In this document: in pieces, positions 4,654 through 24,300 of the stretch
How the letters are laid out: every line of letters begins with the position of its first letter
Position numbering within the stretch: position 1 is the first letter of the stretch
Virus record (IMG/VR): IMGVR_UViG_3300008448_000627
Coordinates: 1 to 24,300 of that record
Strand: one strand, 5' to 3'
DNA: 24,300 bases
DNA from: a virus
Translations under genes and position numbers: made by a program
Notes under the pieces: generated by a model
Seen by the model: the letters and a program-made list of their open reading frames with translations, nothing else
Told to the model about the DNA's origin: nothing
Database searches by the model: none

Positions 4654-5979
4654 TTACATAAGGTTGTTAACAAGAACGCGACGATAGTACTTGTTCGAGT
4701 CCTTGATGAGAGCACCAAGAGCTGGATCAGCAGCATCGTTACCACCAGCAAATGGATTCGCGACCATGCCGTAGCGGGTCTTGAAGCCAATCTTTGGCTG
4801 GAAGTTCTCTTGGTCAACTGCACGAACCATCTGTAGTGGAACGTATGGGCAGTAGAACAGACCAGCGTCGAATGCTGACGAACCCTTATAACCAACTGTC
4901 AGATAGTTGCCAGTTGTGTATGGGTCGATGTAAACGCGAAGGCGACCGTTAAGAACACCAGCGAAGGTGTTGCCTGTGTCGTCAACGTTCAGGTTGTTCG
5001 AGTTAAGAGCAGGAGCGTAGTCAAGAACACCAGCCATCTGAAGAGCCGAAGCAACGTCCGACGAACAGATTACGATGTTACCCTTACCACGTCTTGTGCC
5101 CTTGGCGATCTGGTTAGCTTCACGCTCGAGCTGGAACATCAGACCCTTGAACTTTTCAACCGACCAACGGCCGTTTGAGTCTGTGTCAAGGTCGAAGATA
5201 CCTGCTGTAGTTGTGCCTTCCGAAGCACCACGCTCAGCTGTGACGTTGATCGTGCGAACAACTTCACGGTTGATTTCCGAAAGGATTTCAGCCGAAAGAA
5301 TGTTTGCAAGTTCTGTCTCAGCGTCAAGACCGTGAATTGCCTTCAGGTCCTGTGCGAGTTCGAGTGAGTATTCTGCCTTCAGAGCGCGTGAGCGAGCTGT
5401 AACAGTTACCTTCTCGATCGAGAATGCCATTTCTGGAATCGAAACAGATGAGTTGCCCCATGCTTCTGCGTATGCAGTGTTAACACCACGTACGTAGTTG
5501 TATGTGTTTGATTCAGCGTTGTTGGCTGTGCCTGGAACCGTACCGGTGTGACGGAAACCAGGAAGGTTAACAGTTGTGTTACCTTCTGGGTTTGCCGAGA
5601 AGCCAGTGTTCGATTCGTTGTAGAATGCTTCGTCGCCACCCTGAGTCGAGTAACGTGCGCGCATTGCGAAGATCAGGCCTGTTGGACCTGTCATTGGCTG
5701 AACGCCGCAGATGTCATAAGCAACAAGGTTTGGCATCGCACGACGAACCAGTGAGATAAGCACTGGGTCAAATGTGTCGATAGCCGAGCCGGTTACGTTG
5801 TTTGGTGTTTCTGCAAGAAGGTTCTGTGAACCGAAAGCAGCGGTTGACTCACGAAGAGCAGACTCAGTGTTCTCAAGAATCTGAGCTGTTACTGCACGAC
5901 GGTGCGAGTCCTTGATTGGGTTGAGGTCAGCATGTTCAAGAACAGGCTGCCACTTGTTTTGTAGTTCCTCAGCTAGCAT
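4654..5979 (-). CDS. 23: Major capsid protein gp23
   Basis: Main shell protein of the head, HK97 fold. The 441-aa sequence contains the highly conserved T4-superfamily block LVRRAMPNLVAYDICGVQPM (about 78-97), followed by TGPTGLIFAMRARY. An N-terminal segment rich in helix-forming residues ends at LLAE (54-57), which fits the T4 prohead protease rule (L/I-x-E). Cleavage after E57 would give a mature protein of 384 residues; this is inferred. It is shorter than T4 gp23 (521 aa), as in marine relatives. The start ATG follows a near-perfect AAGGAGG ribosome site, and a TATAAATA late promoter lies 33 bases upstream. A strong terminator follows. No gp24 paralogue is adjacent. Confidence 0.97.
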   Translation of the reverse strand: MLAEELQNKWQPVLEHADLNPIKDSHRRAVTAQILENTESALRESTAAFGSQNLLAETPNNVTGSAIDTFDPVLISLVRRAMPNLVAYDICGVQPMTGPTGLIFAMRARYSTQGGDEAFYNESNTGFSANPEGNTTVNLPGFRHTGTVPGTANNAESNTYNYVRGVNTAYAEAWGNSSVSIPEMAFSIEKVTVTARSRALKAEYSLELAQDLKAIHGLDAETELANILSAEILSEINREVVRTINVTAERGASEGTTTAGIFDLDTDSNGRWSVEKFKGLMFQLEREANQIAKGTRRGKGNIVICSSDVASALQMAGVLDYAPALNSNNLNVDDTGNTFAGVLNGRLRVYIDPYTTGNYLTVGYKGSSAFDAGLFYCPYVPLQMVRAVDQENFQPKIGFKTRYGMVANPFAGGNDAADPALGALIKDSNKYYRRVLVNNLM

Positions 5980-13549: not shown

Positions 13550-15574
<2,025 letters not shown>

Positions 15575-17916: not shown

Positions 17917-17924
17917 TATTTATC
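17917..17924 (-). promoter_or_regulatory. Late promoter GATAAATA for gene 13
   Basis: GATAAATA on the minus strand, 26 bases upstream of the gp13 start, overlapping the stop codon region of the oxygenase gene before it. Confidence 0.77.
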
Positions 17925-18489
17925 GAAACTTAGGACCTTGGATCCACGAAACAAGAGATCTACGCACACCCTTTGTTACAGGAGTTACGCGGTGAAGCAA
18001 GAATGAAGGGAACACCATAACTGATCCTTTTGCGCGGATCTGGTCTGCTGGCATCTGAGCGTACTGTGAATCGATCTCAAAATCCCCACCCTCATACTCG
18101 GAAGGATCTGTCAACTGGATCACGATTGATATCTTTCTGTCATATGCTGTCGGGTTTGCCCAGAATGTATCGTGGTGCCAATCATACTTGCCGTTATCGT
18201 CGGCCGTGTACTTTGTATACTGAATGTCTGGCAGGTAGTCGATATCGAATCCGAATGCATTCCTATTCGCTTCTCTGGCGTAATACCACAACACATCTGT
18301 GATGAACCTACTAGATGGATCATTAGGATTGATCCATCTGATCTCGCTCGACCTAGCTCCGTTGTTGTGCGTCGATCCATCAAAGCCAAGACCTGCATTA
18401 GCTACAGGGTATTGATCTCCGATGTCTATAATGCTCTTCACTTGATCGTTGTTTAACGAGGCGTGCCAAAACTGCCATAACTGATTCAT
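17920..18489 (-). CDS. 2OG-Fe(II) oxygenase, prolyl-4-hydroxylase/PKHD type
   Basis: 2-oxoglutarate and Fe(II)-dependent dioxygenase. The 189 residues show the iron triad HxD at H105/D107 (in YDWHHDTF) and a distal H166 (in LLHRVTP), with R176 ten residues later in GVRRSLVSW as the 2-oxoglutarate binder. The strands between (RKISIVIQLTD, GGDFEID) fit the double-stranded beta-helix. Such genes are common in cyanophages and some rhizobial T4-like phages; the substrate (peptidyl residue, nucleobase or small molecule) is unknown. It sits between a second, different oxygenase and the neck genes, and a TAGGAATT ribosome site precedes the ATG. Confidence 0.92.
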   Translation of the reverse strand: MNQLWQFWHASLNNDQVKSIIDIGDQYPVANAGLGFDGSTHNNGARSSEIRWINPNDPSSRFITDVLWYYAREANRNAFGFDIDYLPDIQYTKYTADDNGKYDWHHDTFWANPTAYDRKISIVIQLTDPSEYEGGDFEIDSQYAQMPADQIRAKGSVMVFPSFLLHRVTPVTKGVRRSLVSWIQGPKFR

Positions 18490-18497
18490 TGTAATTC

Positions 18498-19169
18498 CTA
18501 ACTAAAACTGCGCCAATTACTTATAGGTTGTAATCCCATCGATCTTGCTTGCTTCTCTTTGAACGTAAGAACAAAGTCGCCCGCCAATGAGATCCTACGA
18601 TCTTCCATCTTCTCCACTCGTTCCGTCTTATGAGTCTCTACCATATGCCTTAGCTTTGCAGGGAAGATTGCAAGCGCACCCTCTATCGGTCTAAACTCTA
18701 CTGAGTTACAGTTGTACTGATTGCTATATTCAACAGCCCTATTATCCTTATGTCCTAAGAACATTCCGTTCGTTAAGTCGTTTGGCCTATCGAGAGGAGG
18801 TAGAAAGTGTAGAGGGTATGCTGACTCTTCAGGAACATTGACGTAGTACACAAACGAGAGGTGAGCGTCTTCATGATTGTGAGCTGGGACATTGAAGTCG
18901 CTAAACCACGTCTTAACTAGCCATGGCTCCCACATATCTTTGAAGCCAACTAGAGTTTCGACATACTCCTCTGCAACACTCGCTACAAACTTAAAGAACT
19001 CTTCGAAGTCGGGATTGAGATGTAGATCGACGTGGCCAGACTGCTCGCCAGTTATTCCATCTTCTCTTAGATACTTTGGAAGGTTGTCGAAGAACGTCTG
19101 CTTGAACTTATCGTGCCGTCTATACGTTTCAGTTGCTACAAGTGTAGGGAACAAGTCGTAGGTTTTCAT
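18498..19169 (-). CDS. 2OG-Fe(II) oxygenase of the phage-common TIGR02466 type
   Basis: Second putative 2-oxoglutarate/Fe(II) oxygenase, unrelated in detail to the one downstream. In the 223 aa the pattern of this family is visible: a short N-terminal MKTYDLFPTLVAT, then WFSDFNVPAHNHEDAHLSFV with H97/H99 (about 88-107), YYVNVPEESAYPLHFLPP, and the C-terminal iron and cosubstrate segment ALAIFPAKLRHMVETH (H175) followed by EDRRISLAGDFVLTF (R191/R192). Which of H97, H99 and E100 bind iron is not certain from sequence. The ATG overlaps the stop of the small membrane gene as ATGA, so it is translationally coupled to the Coq4 block. Confidence 0.87.
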   Translation of the reverse strand: MKTYDLFPTLVATETYRRHDKFKQTFFDNLPKYLREDGITGEQSGHVDLHLNPDFEEFFKFVASVAEEYVETLVGFKDMWEPWLVKTWFSDFNVPAHNHEDAHLSFVYYVNVPEESAYPLHFLPPLDRPNDLTNGMFLGHKDNRAVEYSNQYNCNSVEFRPIEGALAIFPAKLRHMVETHKTERVEKMEDRRISLAGDFVLTFKEKQARSMGLQPISNWRSFS

Positions 19170-19321
19170 AATAAGTCTACTCCGAAGTAGAGCACACCAA
19201 TAAGCACAGCTATTCTAAAGATCCAACGAACAATTATGAGACCAAGAAAGATTTGAAACCACCTTTTGGTCTTCAGTTTATCATATAGATTGCGCAGCCG
19301 CGAAGTTAAGTTTGACATCAT
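19166..19321 (-). CDS. Small membrane protein overlapping the Coq4-like gene (51 aa)
   Basis: Not recognised. A basic N-terminal part (SRLRNLYDKLKTKRW, about 7-21) is followed by a strongly hydrophobic C-terminal segment (WFQIFLGLIIV and IAVLIGVLYFGVDLL around a central Arg pair) that would span or lie in the inner membrane once or twice. The start is placed at the ATG at 19321; a second ATG follows at 19318. A longer form using a TTG at 19369 is less likely. The first 41 bases overlap the 3' end of the Coq4-like gene, and its stop overlaps the next oxygenase start as ATGA. This coupling suggests a shared job with one of these neighbours, by inference. Confidence 0.65.
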   Translation of the reverse strand: MMSNLTSRLRNLYDKLKTKRWFQIFLGLIIVRWIFRIAVLIGVLYFGVDLL

Positions 19322-20114
19322 TATACTCAGGGTGAATAGAATCGAGTCTGAACGACTCTCTATTTTCAATTGCGAATTTCAAGAATCTGACAGGTGTGCC
19401 GATGTTATACATCTTACGGGCTTCGTTGACATCCATGTCGAGTATCTCTAGCGGATTAACATACCAAAGCTCATCTTTAGCCTGCTTTGCCAGCATGTTA
19501 GCCTCTCTCAGTATGTGAAGAGGTTCCCAGGTCTTATACTTATAACAGTTTTTAAGTGCCATTACGTGAGATAGATACCAGGCTCCCCAGTGTCGAGACA
19601 TAACATACTGGAGTTCTTGAACACAGGCTTCACCGAGCTGTGTGGTATCGTATCTGAACAAAACATGCATAAAGTCGTGGCAGAGAAATATATGACGAGA
19701 GATGTTTGAGCGCACATCATCGATGAACCCAACGAACCCATCCTCGCGATCTTGCTGGAACCTACGATCCCACAACTCATCAAAAGACCACTGCTTAATC
19801 AAGTGATAGTAGTGGCCACCGACAGTGTTAGGCGCATACTTCTCCATAATCTCCTTGCTAGTGATTACAGGGAGAATATTTTCATATTGGTATTGGATCG
19901 ACTTATCGTTACGACCCCACAAAATATCTCTGCCGCGCGGAGTTGATCTCAGCTTCTTTACGATAAGTAAGTTAGATGGAAAAAGGAGTTGGGAGTTGAC
20001 TTCACGCGCAACATCAGCCGCCGCGATCTGCAGGTCCTCGTCGTAATGATTGTAATTAGTATCACGGTTCCAAATGATCTTAGTCAGCTTGTATAGCTTA
20101 ACAGGATTCCACAT
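19281..20114 (-). CDS. Coq4-family protein (ubiquinone biosynthesis homologue)
   Basis: Coq4 proteins bind a divalent metal and act late in coenzyme Q synthesis; recent work links Coq4 to oxidative decarboxylation at ring carbon C1. The 277-aa protein has the family metal motif HDxxH-x11-E exactly: H146, D147, H150 and E162 in HDFMHVLFRYDTTQLGE. Around it lie other Coq4-like features: GFIDDVRSNISRHIFL just before, and an EACVQELQYVM helix after. The N-terminal 120 residues are helical and charged. No signal peptide is seen. Gene order (unknown 235-aa gene, Coq4, small membrane protein, two oxygenases) is a compact accessory block before the neck genes. Whether it acts on quinones or has been recruited to another lipid is unknown. 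Confidence 0.85.
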   Translation of the reverse strand: MWNPVKLYKLTKIIWNRDTNYNHYDEDLQIAAADVAREVNSQLLFPSNLLIVKKLRSTPRGRDILWGRNDKSIQYQYENILPVITSKEIMEKYAPNTVGGHYYHLIKQWSFDELWDRRFQQDREDGFVGFIDDVRSNISRHIFLCHDFMHVLFRYDTTQLGEACVQELQYVMSRHWGAWYLSHVMALKNCYKYKTWEPLHILREANMLAKQAKDELWYVNPLEILDMDVNEARKMYNIGTPVRFLKFAIENRESFRLDSIHPEYNDVKLNFAAAQSI

Positions 20115-20120
20115 TTTACA

Positions 20121-20828
20121 TCATCCTTTGTAGTATCTTAGCACTTTAATACGTTGAGTCCCGGTATTCACAATCTCCAGAGACTGACTTGTCATTTTGT
20201 ATAACTTGTACTTTGTTAGCACAACGTCACCTTTTGTTACGTCTCCAGTAAACATAACATAACACACTTCACACTGAGGCTTTGTGATTTCTAATGATGC
20301 ATTAGGCTCTACAGTCCTCTGCTGAAAGGTGTAGTTATGAAAGGTTCCATTAAGACGTGTCACACAAAGAAACTCCGCATCGTCCGAAGTGTTGGTAACC
20401 TTTGCATAATATGCCTTTGGGTGCCACTGTACTAGTTGACCTGACCATTCAGGAACCTCGAAGTTCCCATTGTGAAGGTCAATAAGAATAGTATAGTTTT
20501 CAATATCGTTTGTTACGGTCGAGCCGGCCGGCGCCTGGGACTCTAGAAGCGGAATGTATGCGTTGATATCTGCTTCCGTTACCTCATTTGGATCCCATCG
20601 CCACTCCATTTGAAATGACCCAGCAATAAACACGTGACCATTGGTGTTTTTAATAACATTGTTTAGAGCTGGGTGTGGCTCGGGGCTTCCTCCAGCATGA
20701 TGCATGTTTTCAAGAGAGTCGCGGCCAATAGTCTTTCCCATGCTGTTAGGAAGGAAGTGTGATACCATTAGCTCATTATCATATACACCAATAAGATCTG
20801 GATTACCATGCGTAGTAAAGAAAGCCAT
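20121..20828 (-). CDS. Unrecognised 235-aa protein upstream of the Coq4-like gene
   Basis: No family recognised. The N-terminal third has HGNPDLIGVYDNELMVSHFL and an MHHAGGSPEPHPALNNVI segment rich in His and Pro. The remainder looks strand-rich, with ENYTILIDLHNGNF, YYAKVTNTSDDAEFL, TFHNYTFQQRTVEPNASLEI and a last LYKMTSQSLEIVNTGTQRIK, which could be a small beta-sandwich or cupin-like fold. Two Cys lie in QCEVCYVM near residue 183. There is no signal peptide or membrane segment. The ATG overlaps the stop of the 41-aa gene as TAATG and the stop is 6 bases before the Coq4-like ATG. It could be a virion protein of the tail-fibre set or part of the metabolic block. Confidence 0.82.
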   Translation of the reverse strand: MAFFTTHGNPDLIGVYDNELMVSHFLPNSMGKTIGRDSLENMHHAGGSPEPHPALNNVIKNTNGHVFIAGSFQMEWRWDPNEVTEADINAYIPLLESQAPAGSTVTNDIENYTILIDLHNGNFEVPEWSGQLVQWHPKAYYAKVTNTSDDAEFLCVTRLNGTFHNYTFQQRTVEPNASLEITKPQCEVCYVMFTGDVTKGDVVLTKYKLYKMTSQSLEIVNTGTQRIKVLRYYKG

Positions 20829-22098: not shown

Positions 22099-24300
22099 TT
22101 AACCTCTAATTGAGTTGATTTGTTCTTGTAGAATATTTATATGCGCTTGTTGCTCCTTGATTGCTTCGATCAGAAGACCAACAACATTACCATAAGCAAC
22201 AGACTTAATGCCATGCTCATCTTCCATTACAACCTCCGGCAGGATCTTCTCAATCTCTTGAGCAATCACACCAGCACCTCTATTACCCGTATCTATTCTT
22301 TCGAATGTGACACCACGAACGCTTAATACCTTCTCGAGGGCGTTTGGAATCGACTCAATGTTCCTCTTAAGCTTGATATCTGAGTAAGCAGTAATGTTGT
22401 CTGCAGCGGTCAGGGCACCAGCTGTGGTAATTTGGATACCACCCGTTCCAAGAGTAGTACCAGAGTTGATGCACCACACGTCGGAGGTGTTCGGACCCCA
22501 TGCCCACCAAAGATCCGCATTCGAACCATTTCTAGCAGAGAGAATATTCAAGCCGTTTTGGTTAGCACTGCTAGGAGACATCTGTGTGAGACGGCCGTTA
22601 CCACCCTGGATACCTACAACGTGAATTGTAGCATCGAAACCAGATCCACCACCCAGGTTAAGGTTTCTCATACGACTGCTATCATTAGGATTGGTGTAGA
22701 AACCAGTGTCCTGGCTATCATAAAAGATAGCTGAACGCATATCGTGAGACGTACCAGTTGTTTGTAGAATACCACCGAAAGTTGCTGTGTTATTAGTCAG
22801 GTTAATTTCTAATGGCCAAGCGCCATTAACCTGAGCCCATGACTCTGTATCGTTACCGCCACGGAGAACATAGAAAATGTTACTATTACAGTGTATCATC
22901 GACGAGTTGTGATCTGTATCGCGTAGGAAAATAGTTGGAGAGCCACCGCGAAGCACAAAATCATTTCCAGTCCAACGGATAGTAGTATCATTCTGATCGT
23001 AGAAGATTGGAGCACGTATATCTCCAGTTTCAGCAATCACACCGCCGTTCAGTGTATACAGATAGCCGTTACTATCGAATCTAAAGTACTTTTCTGCGCC
23101 GCCAGCACCAGATCTAATACCCAAATGATCATTTGCCACACCATAGATGTATGCATTTTGACTGCCTACTAGTATTCCAAACAAACGCGAGTTGCTATTT
23201 GGGTTAATAAAGTAATTGGTATCATCACTATCATAGAAGATTGGAGCCCGCCAGTCTGAAGACGAGTAACCGATCCCATCGATATGGAAGTGATAGCGGG
23301 CATTAGACGCACCAAAGCTGGCTACGTTAGACCAGGAGTTAGCAGTGCCTGTTGTTTGCTGAATATAAAGAGGGAGACCGCCACCATCATCCCATTTACG
23401 AAAGCGAGAACTATACTGACCATTAGTGTAAGAACCATTAATTACAACACCGCGGCCGTTTTCAAGGGAACTAGATCCTGTTGCTAAATCGATTCTAGCC
23501 CATCCAGCAAGTATACTTGCCGCGGCGGGATCAACATAATATGCCGTGTTGTTGCTGTCATAGAAGATCGGTGCGCGCATATCAGCAAGGGCAGTTAGAA
23601 CACCAGCACCTGTAAGGGTTAGAGCGTCACTTGAAGCAGACCACCCACCGATGCGGAATACATTGTCCGTACCAAGGCCCATGTTGATAGCATAGGCACC
23701 GGTTCTGTGGAACGACATAACCGCAACTGTAGACGTGTTTCCACGAGCAGAGAACGAACCTGTATCGTTCGCTGAGTTTACATCAGTAGAAGCAGAGTTT
23801 CGGCCTATGACAAGACCGGCCATAGCAAGAACGTTTAGAGATGATGTGCTATTAGGATCTGTGTAAAAACCCGTATTATCTGAATCATAGAAGATTGGAG
23901 CTCGATCTGAGTCATCATGTTGAGTATATGTAGCATAGCGCACCATTCCAGCGGATGTAGATCCACCACCATAGATTCGAGTTAAACCGCTGTTGCCGTT
24001 TCCATAACCGATGTACATTCCATCGGCCAACACTCCTGAGGTGTTATTATTTCTGAAAACGCGCATGCTAGCATAAACATCATTGGTAGCTATGTCAAAA
24101 CCGGCTGTACATCTTAATCCAAATAAAACCGATTGGCTTGCCGGATCGAGGTAGTAATTGGTGTCATCATAATCATAATAGATACCATCTGCATGGATAT
24201 TCTGTCCAAAGTAGAACTGCGCTCTGTCTGTCTGAAAGTGGCAGAAACCAGTGTTCATTGGTCCTAAATCAAGATAACCTGAAGGTGTTTGTAGTCTGTG
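22099..24300 (-). CDS. Tail fibre protein with FYDxxNT repeats and S74 chaperone domain, N-terminus outside window
   Basis: Long fibre-like protein cut by the right edge: the frame stays open from the stop at 22099 to base 24300, so the Met at 24258 is internal (the residues before it read TPSGYLDLGP). Counting from that Met, six copies of a (P)IFYDSxxTxYYxDPxS element lie at about 27-42, 120-138, 229-247, 339-356, 417-427 and 510-528. Residues about 622-719 are an intramolecular chaperone/autoprotease (Peptidase S74) domain with AYSDIKLKRNI, where S626 and K631 match the Ser-Lys pair of endosialidase, and VIAQEIEKILPEVV after it. The domain trimerises the fibre and then cleaves itself off before S626; this processing is inferred. 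The fibre probably binds the host surface. Confidence 0.93.
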   Translation of the reverse strand, partial: HRLQTPSGYLDLGPMNTGFCHFQTDRAQFYFGQNIHADGIYYDYDDTNYYLDPASQSVLFGLRCTAGFDIATNDVYASMRVFRNNNTSGVLADGMYIGYGNGNSGLTRIYGGGSTSAGMVRYATYTQHDDSDRAPIFYDSDNTGFYTDPNSTSSLNVLAMAGLVIGRNSASTDVNSANDTGSFSARGNTSTVAVMSFHRTGAYAINMGLGTDNVFRIGGWSASSDALTLTGAGVLTALADMRAPIFYDSNNTAYYVDPAAASILAGWARIDLATGSSSLENGRGVVINGSYTNGQYSSRFRKWDDGGGLPLYIQQTTGTANSWSNVASFGASNARYHFHIDGIGYSSSDWRAPIFYDSDDTNYFINPNSNSRLFGILVGSQNAYIYGVANDHLGIRSGAGGAEKYFRFDSNGYLYTLNGGVIAETGDIRAPIFYDQNDTTIRWTGNDFVLRGGSPTIFLRDTDHNSSMIHCNSNIFYVLRGGNDTESWAQVNGAWPLEINLTNNTATFGGILQTTGTSHDMRSAIFYDSQDTGFYTNPNDSSRMRNLNLGGGSGFDATIHVVGIQGGNGRLTQMSPSSANQNGLNILSARNGSNADLWWAWGPNTSDVWCINSGTTLGTGGIQITTAGALTAADNITAYSDIKLKRNIESIPNALEKVLSVRGVTFERIDTGNRGAGVIAQEIEKILPEVVMEDEHGIKSVAYGNVVGLLIEAIKEQQAHINILQEQINSIRG
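22134..22141 (-). promoter_or_regulatory. Late promoter TATAAATA inside the tail-fibre end, for the 22097-17920 gene string
   Basis: Exact octamer on the minus strand within the last codons of the tail-fibre gene, 36 bases upstream of the 122-aa gene. It is the only late promoter found before gene 13 and would drive the small tail genes, the Coq4-like block and both oxygenases. Confidence 0.8.

Follow-up and report, generated by a model that had tools for sequence, protein, structure and literature searches.

A divergent Coq4-family gene in tailed phages, its small transmembrane partner and a possible role in ubiquinone synthesis

The window (the whole stretch of DNA analysed here, 24,300 bases of an IMG/VR virus record) encodes a Coq4-family protein, divergent but intact, that belongs to a previously undescribed group of phage proteins. 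In cells this family takes part in the synthesis of ubiquinone, a molecule of respiration. The leading reading of its function, put forward tentatively and as somewhat short of probable, is C1 decarboxylation of a ubiquinone precursor together with a small transmembrane (TM) partner.

Results

Identity of the Coq4-family gene

The gene lies at 19281-20114 on the minus strand and encodes 277 aa. The first-pass annotation, made from the sequence without database searches, had placed the ORF at exactly these coordinates, with no strand given, and described it as a Coq4 homologue of a T4-like phage with an intact metal motif. That description was borne out, and neither of the outcomes that the annotation had named as refuting it was observed. 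In Pfam the protein scored 28.8 bits with PF05019 (Coq4; E = 9e-7), for which the curated cut-off is 22.9, and the same profile was matched by all 16 aligned relatives at E values of up to 1. A profile search matched PDB 3MSQ at 2.5e-4. Residues H146, D147, H150 and E162 are present with the HDxxH-x11-E spacing and are invariant in 43/43 records. Taken with the relatives, the AlphaFold2 model and the fold matches to 6E12 and 3MSQ, membership of the Coq4 family is near certain. A further claim, that a preceding 'FIDD...RHIF block' is typical of Coq4, did not survive comparison: FIDD is not kept even within the phage family, and RH (140-141) is particular to that family, the usual cellular counterpart being R-R/L-x-D-x-HD. 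A match of the window protein in PHROGs (E = 0.048) was dismissed as chance.

The phage Coq4 family

As the alignment grew, the number of IMG/VR loci with a phage Coq4 rose from 4 to 19 and then to 44. The family is counted here as 43 IMG/VR records, with one row per contig and the window included, and all of these phage records are fragments. Besides E162 and the other motif residues, G61, T97, G99, R118, N137, R140, Y155, T157, G161, Q166, E204, D228 and R233 are found in 43/43 records. The gene is under mostly strong purifying selection: of the 13 pairs that allowed a dN/dS estimate, 10 fell within 0.02-0.18, and the remaining three (0.28, 0.41 and 0.75) are close pairs with dS < 0.1.

Carriers belong to at least three unrelated kinds of phage. 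The first is T4-like and includes the window, with a flap endonuclease that resembles that of Melnitz. The second has a recombination exonuclease similar to that of T5-like Vibrio phages, and the third is small and podovirus-like, with a stabilisation protein similar to that of Pelagibacter phage HTVC106P. No homologue was found when 50,697 annotated phages were searched with the proteins of the window, L013 and L018, nor was there a match among plasmids (window protein) or in PHROGs (three relatives), and a BFVD search gave nothing below E 0.9. A full-text search of the open-access literature found no report of Coq4 as a viral gene, in agreement with the earlier remark that Coq4 has no established role in T4-like phages.

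Predicted structure and metal motif

The AlphaFold2 model of the phage Coq4 (pLDDT 78.7, pTM 0.80) has the all-helical Coq4/Alr8543 fold. Its top fold matches were the two solved structures of the Coq4 family. Nostoc Alr8543 (6E12) gave Z 18.6, with 2.6 A over 205 residues, and 3MSQ gave Z 16.7; the next-best chain reached only Z 4.3. The motif helices span 127-153 and 159-173, in positions that agree with 6E12, and the spacing of the metal motif is identical in the two proteins. The corresponding residues of 6E12, namely H120, D121, H124 and E136, bind Mg2+ (PMC9774615).

The transmembrane partner

In 43/43 contigs coq4 is directly followed by a small ORF whose product has a single, strongly hydrophobic segment; the ORF nearly always overlaps the end of coq4 by 1-60 bases. 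Clustering detected it in 28 contigs, and a directed search for an ORF overlapping coq4 or the next gene added the remaining 15. The copy in the window is a small single-transmembrane protein of 51 aa (19166-19321, minus strand; maximal Kyte-Doolittle mean 2.33) that overlaps the end of coq4 and had no match in Pfam. Most copies have in common W-[DNK]-[FW]-P and a K...N pair within the hydrophobic stretch; that of the window is divergent, lacks W-x-x-P and is the positional counterpart of the others. A search for homologues of the small protein at the cellular coq4 loci tested gave none (best E 0.34). Coq4 and the small protein may act as a single unit; the latter would probably anchor its helical partner at the inner membrane, in a putative membrane complex. 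Because an intact, selected clade occurs in three kinds of phage, always with a membrane partner of the same type, the gene is no accidental pick-up.

Gene neighbourhood

Six bases upstream of coq4 in the window is a 235-aa predicted double-cupin protein, pirin/oxalate-decarboxylase-like and without conserved cupin metal ligands (20121-20828, minus strand). A double-cupin-fold gene of about 230 aa is found just upstream of coq4 in 32/43 contigs. The model of the cupin-fold protein (pLDDT 86.6) gave a best whole-length Z of about 9, to a pirin-like structure. A role as a metal enzyme was discounted, as the alignment shows no conserved ligands and its Z scores (<=9.6) are modestly above background. 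Further upstream, in the same transcriptional direction, is a tail fibre with an S74 intramolecular chaperone (22099-24258, minus strand). Giant tail-fibre-like proteins consisting almost entirely of short T/F/N/S-rich repeats (TTTFNTSRTTTF...) occur just upstream of the cassette in L002 (131-2521) and in L006 and L010 (cluster C5).

Downstream of the pair in the window are two genes for 2OG-Fe(II) oxygenases, both on the minus strand, the next gene (18498-19169, PF13759) being followed by a second (17920-18489, PF13640). 2OG oxygenases also come after the coq4-TM pair in L022, L023, L052 and L054-L057; examples directly after it are at 17920-19169 in the window, L022:3155-3772 and L055:7010-7708. 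Genes of this type are common among T4-like phages, so the adjacency, which would place a hydroxylase beside a decarboxylase, is perhaps coincidence.

A different setting is found in L012, L013, L015-L018, L032, L033, L036 and L038. Here the pair sits amid genes for Redoxin (peroxiredoxin), phosphoribosyltransferase, NifU_N (IscU), Fe-S_biosyn (IscA) and glutaredoxin, distant from fibre genes and without a cupin gene. Three of these loci (L013:1485-7503, L018:1031-2682 and L016:509-2362) also show a gene set that is unusual for a phage: curli-secretion proteins (CsgF, and CsgG at E = 2e-50 and 4e-53), a FecR-domain protein, a weak match to curlin repeats and, after these, a membrane CHASE2-guanylate/adenylate cyclase. 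Among the neighbours examined, a subset of the genes in these fragment records, none besides coq4 was recognised as a gene of quinone synthesis, which weighs against a quinone role. Bacterial ubi genes are often scattered, so co-location is no strict defining feature.

Phylogeny and host

The window carries T4-like capsid, terminase, sheath and helicase genes. The major capsid protein (4654-5979, minus strand) has its nearest relatives in Stenotrophomonas phage DLP6 (71%), Methylophilales phage Melnitz (68%), Pelagibacter phage Mosig (66%) and Sinorhizobium phages (65%); the capsid proteins of cyanophages are a little more distant. The terminase large subunit (13550-15187, minus strand) is nearest to Sinorhizobium phages (60-61%). 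The nearest named hosts for both proteins are Proteobacteria throughout.

Genome contigs gave no match to a profile of the phage-only alignment and were therefore searched with a mixed alignment of phage members and fragments of 3MSQ and 6E12. PF05019 was found in 27/117 genomes of Cyanobacteria, 59/195 of Myxococcota and 33/398 of Pseudomonadota, each set including a seed genome picked for carrying the family. There was no match in E. coli or Caulobacter, both ubiquinone makers, among the control genomes. The marine cyanobacterium Synechococcus WH7803 (L125, G017), which has a small genome and makes no ubiquinone, has six separate PF05019 proteins. A genome titled Comamonas sp. KCTC 72670 (L136) was dropped as the centre of the Pseudomonadota set in favour of a Pseudomonadales genome (G016), since its Coq4 falls among those of Myxococcota and a search of its phylum yielded mostly very large genomes; at 9 Mb, it is probably mislabelled.

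Pseudomonadota Coq4s scored highest among the best 25 hits of the phage-family profile. In a maximum-likelihood tree, a branch with 100/99 support divides phage and Pseudomonadota proteins from those of cyanobacteria, myxobacteria and planctomycetes, and a topology joining the phage proteins to cyanobacteria and planctomycetes was disfavoured (p-AU 0.026). The phage Coq4s are not nested in Pseudomonadota and have a long stem (1.99). The gene was probably acquired long ago from, or near, a Pseudomonadota-type Coq4, and may then have spread to tailed phages of three or more kinds.

A proteobacterial host is thus favoured for the window phage, by its capsid and terminase relatives and by the Coq4 tree. 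The first-pass annotation had named the same host on other grounds, namely that Coq4 implies a ubiquinone maker and excludes cyanobacteria. That host remains favoured, but the reasoning fails. Cyanobacteria produce plastoquinone and no ubiquinone, yet PF05019 is commoner in them than in Pseudomonadota and both solved structures are cyanobacterial; being frequent in Cyanobacteria and Myxococcota and sparse in Pseudomonadota, Coq4 does not by its presence indicate a host that makes ubiquinone.

Discussion

A link to ubiquinone comes from the cellular relatives on the phage side of the tree. If the Pseudomonadota Coq4 is a C1 decarboxylase, its carriers should depend less on UbiX, which prenylates flavin for UbiD. 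UbiX was above cut-off in 14/33 Pseudomonadota genomes with Coq4, against 27/32 without it (Fisher p = 7e-4, with kinship ignored), and UbiA was matched in 33/33 of the carriers, 31 of them above cut-off. This anticorrelation supports, without proving, a ubiquinone role for these relatives. In animals, COQ4 is a Zn-dependent C1 decarboxylase in vitro and mutation of the motif abolishes activity (PMC7615680).

From the computed properties (family, fold, motif, selection, TM gene, tree and UbiX pattern) we infer the following on the metal and the chemistry, on the complex at the membrane and on what the phage would gain. By homology to animal COQ4, a Zn2+ or other divalent ion at HDxxH-x11-E would most likely remove the C1 carboxyl from the prenylated 4-hydroxybenzoate precursor of ubiquinone at the membrane. 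The phage Coq4 would thereby replace or supplement UbiX/UbiD in the infected proteobacterium, and the quinone pool, hence respiration, may be kept or raised during infection. The data suggest, without showing it, that the carrier viruses may alter host quinone chemistry while infecting. An extended form of the proposal, which we consider unlikely, is a two-protein membrane enzyme invented by phages. Here the Coq4-like protein and its dedicated single-TM subunit, in some cases with the adjoining cupin-fold protein or 2OG-Fe(II) oxygenase, would carry out a quinone head-group reaction, possibly C1 decarboxylation and hydroxylation, by a route absent from known cells, and many unrelated aquatic phages would use it to control host respiration.

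The substrate may instead have changed, given the low identity to cellular Coq4, the long stem and the conserved phage-only blocks. A true Coq4 fold could then act, with its TM partner, on some other membrane isoprenoid or lipid, such as another type of quinone or a carrier of polyprenyl phosphate; one conceivable purpose is remodelling of the envelope. Many PF05019 proteins, often in multiple copies, are found in organisms without ubiquinone, which also counts against the quinone reading; Alr8543 contains oleate, with geranylgeranyl monophosphate reported earlier (PMC9774615); and a glycosyltransferase gene lies near the pair in the L016 group. The phage proteins fall, however, on the same side of the tree as Pseudomonadota Coq4s, whose UbiX pattern fits ubiquinone synthesis. 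A changed substrate seems rather improbable, if still a serious rival.

The position of coq4 bears on a second alternative. Both the window and the small podovirus-like phages carry it late, right after the tail-fibre genes, an odd site for a metabolic gene and a further point against quinone chemistry. Together with the ligand-free double-cupin protein upstream and the single-TM partner, this would suit a late membrane-active module for superinfection exclusion, lysis timing or virion assembly, with the cupin-fold protein as a tail component. Such a module would not account for the four metal residues kept by every member, or for the IscU/IscA/glutaredoxin group, where the pair is away from fibre genes and has no cupin gene, and we regard it as doubtful, though a serious rival.

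Yeast Coq4 was long regarded as a scaffold. A scaffold role for Coq4 within its complex has been proposed (PMC11495197), and a membrane partner would suit a recruiter. A catalytically idle phage Coq4 might accordingly bind host quinone-synthesis proteins or lipid precursors and block or reorganise them, but the complete conservation of the metal motif and the absence of an own Coq4 from most Pseudomonadota make this very unlikely. A chance motif or spurious ORF unrelated to Coq4, for which one could cite the failure of single-sequence phmmer to retrieve a Coq4 structure and the lack of an NCBIfam match to the window protein, is already refuted by the Pfam score, the 43 relatives, the purifying selection and the fold match.

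Decarboxylation of a ubiquinone precursor remains the leading, tentative reading. To our knowledge, no enzyme by which a phage would act on the quinone pool through Coq4 has been described. Coq4 chemistry is difficult to study within the eukaryotic complex, and the coq4-TM pair offers a simple two-gene bacterial system for it. A viral ubiG has been reported (PMC9301287). With this family it becomes testable whether phages, while infecting, redirect the ubiquinone synthesis and respiration of their hosts.

Comparison with known systems

In one group of Coq4 phages the neighbourhood includes auxiliary genes of Fe-S and redox metabolism (IscU, A-type carrier and glutaredoxin). Such genes are known from marine T4-like viruses, and the passages that describe them do not mention Coq4 (PMC5332604). 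No Fe-S genes were identified within the window. With animal COQ4 the phage protein has the PF05019 motif HDxxH-x11-E in common. The animal protein belongs to a mitochondrial multi-enzyme complex, and the likeness is one of family and motif. Alr8543 of Nostoc (6E12) and Npun02000094 (3MSQ) have the same fold and motif spacing at about 16% identity, but are cyanobacterial, from organisms without ubiquinone, and their relatives lie on the opposite side of the 100/99 branch. The Pseudomonadota Coq4s (e.g. L175 and L180) are the top cellular relatives by phage profile. They differ in having an EDTxQVFxI block that the phage members lack, in lacking the phage-only MWNPIKI and GRDILWGR, and in the TM partner gene of the phages, which was not found at the cellular loci tested. 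Both sides belong to the same fold family, with the same motif, and have in common V98, G99, Y102, H146, D147, H150, Y155, G161, E162, R233, I238, P241 and Y/F244.
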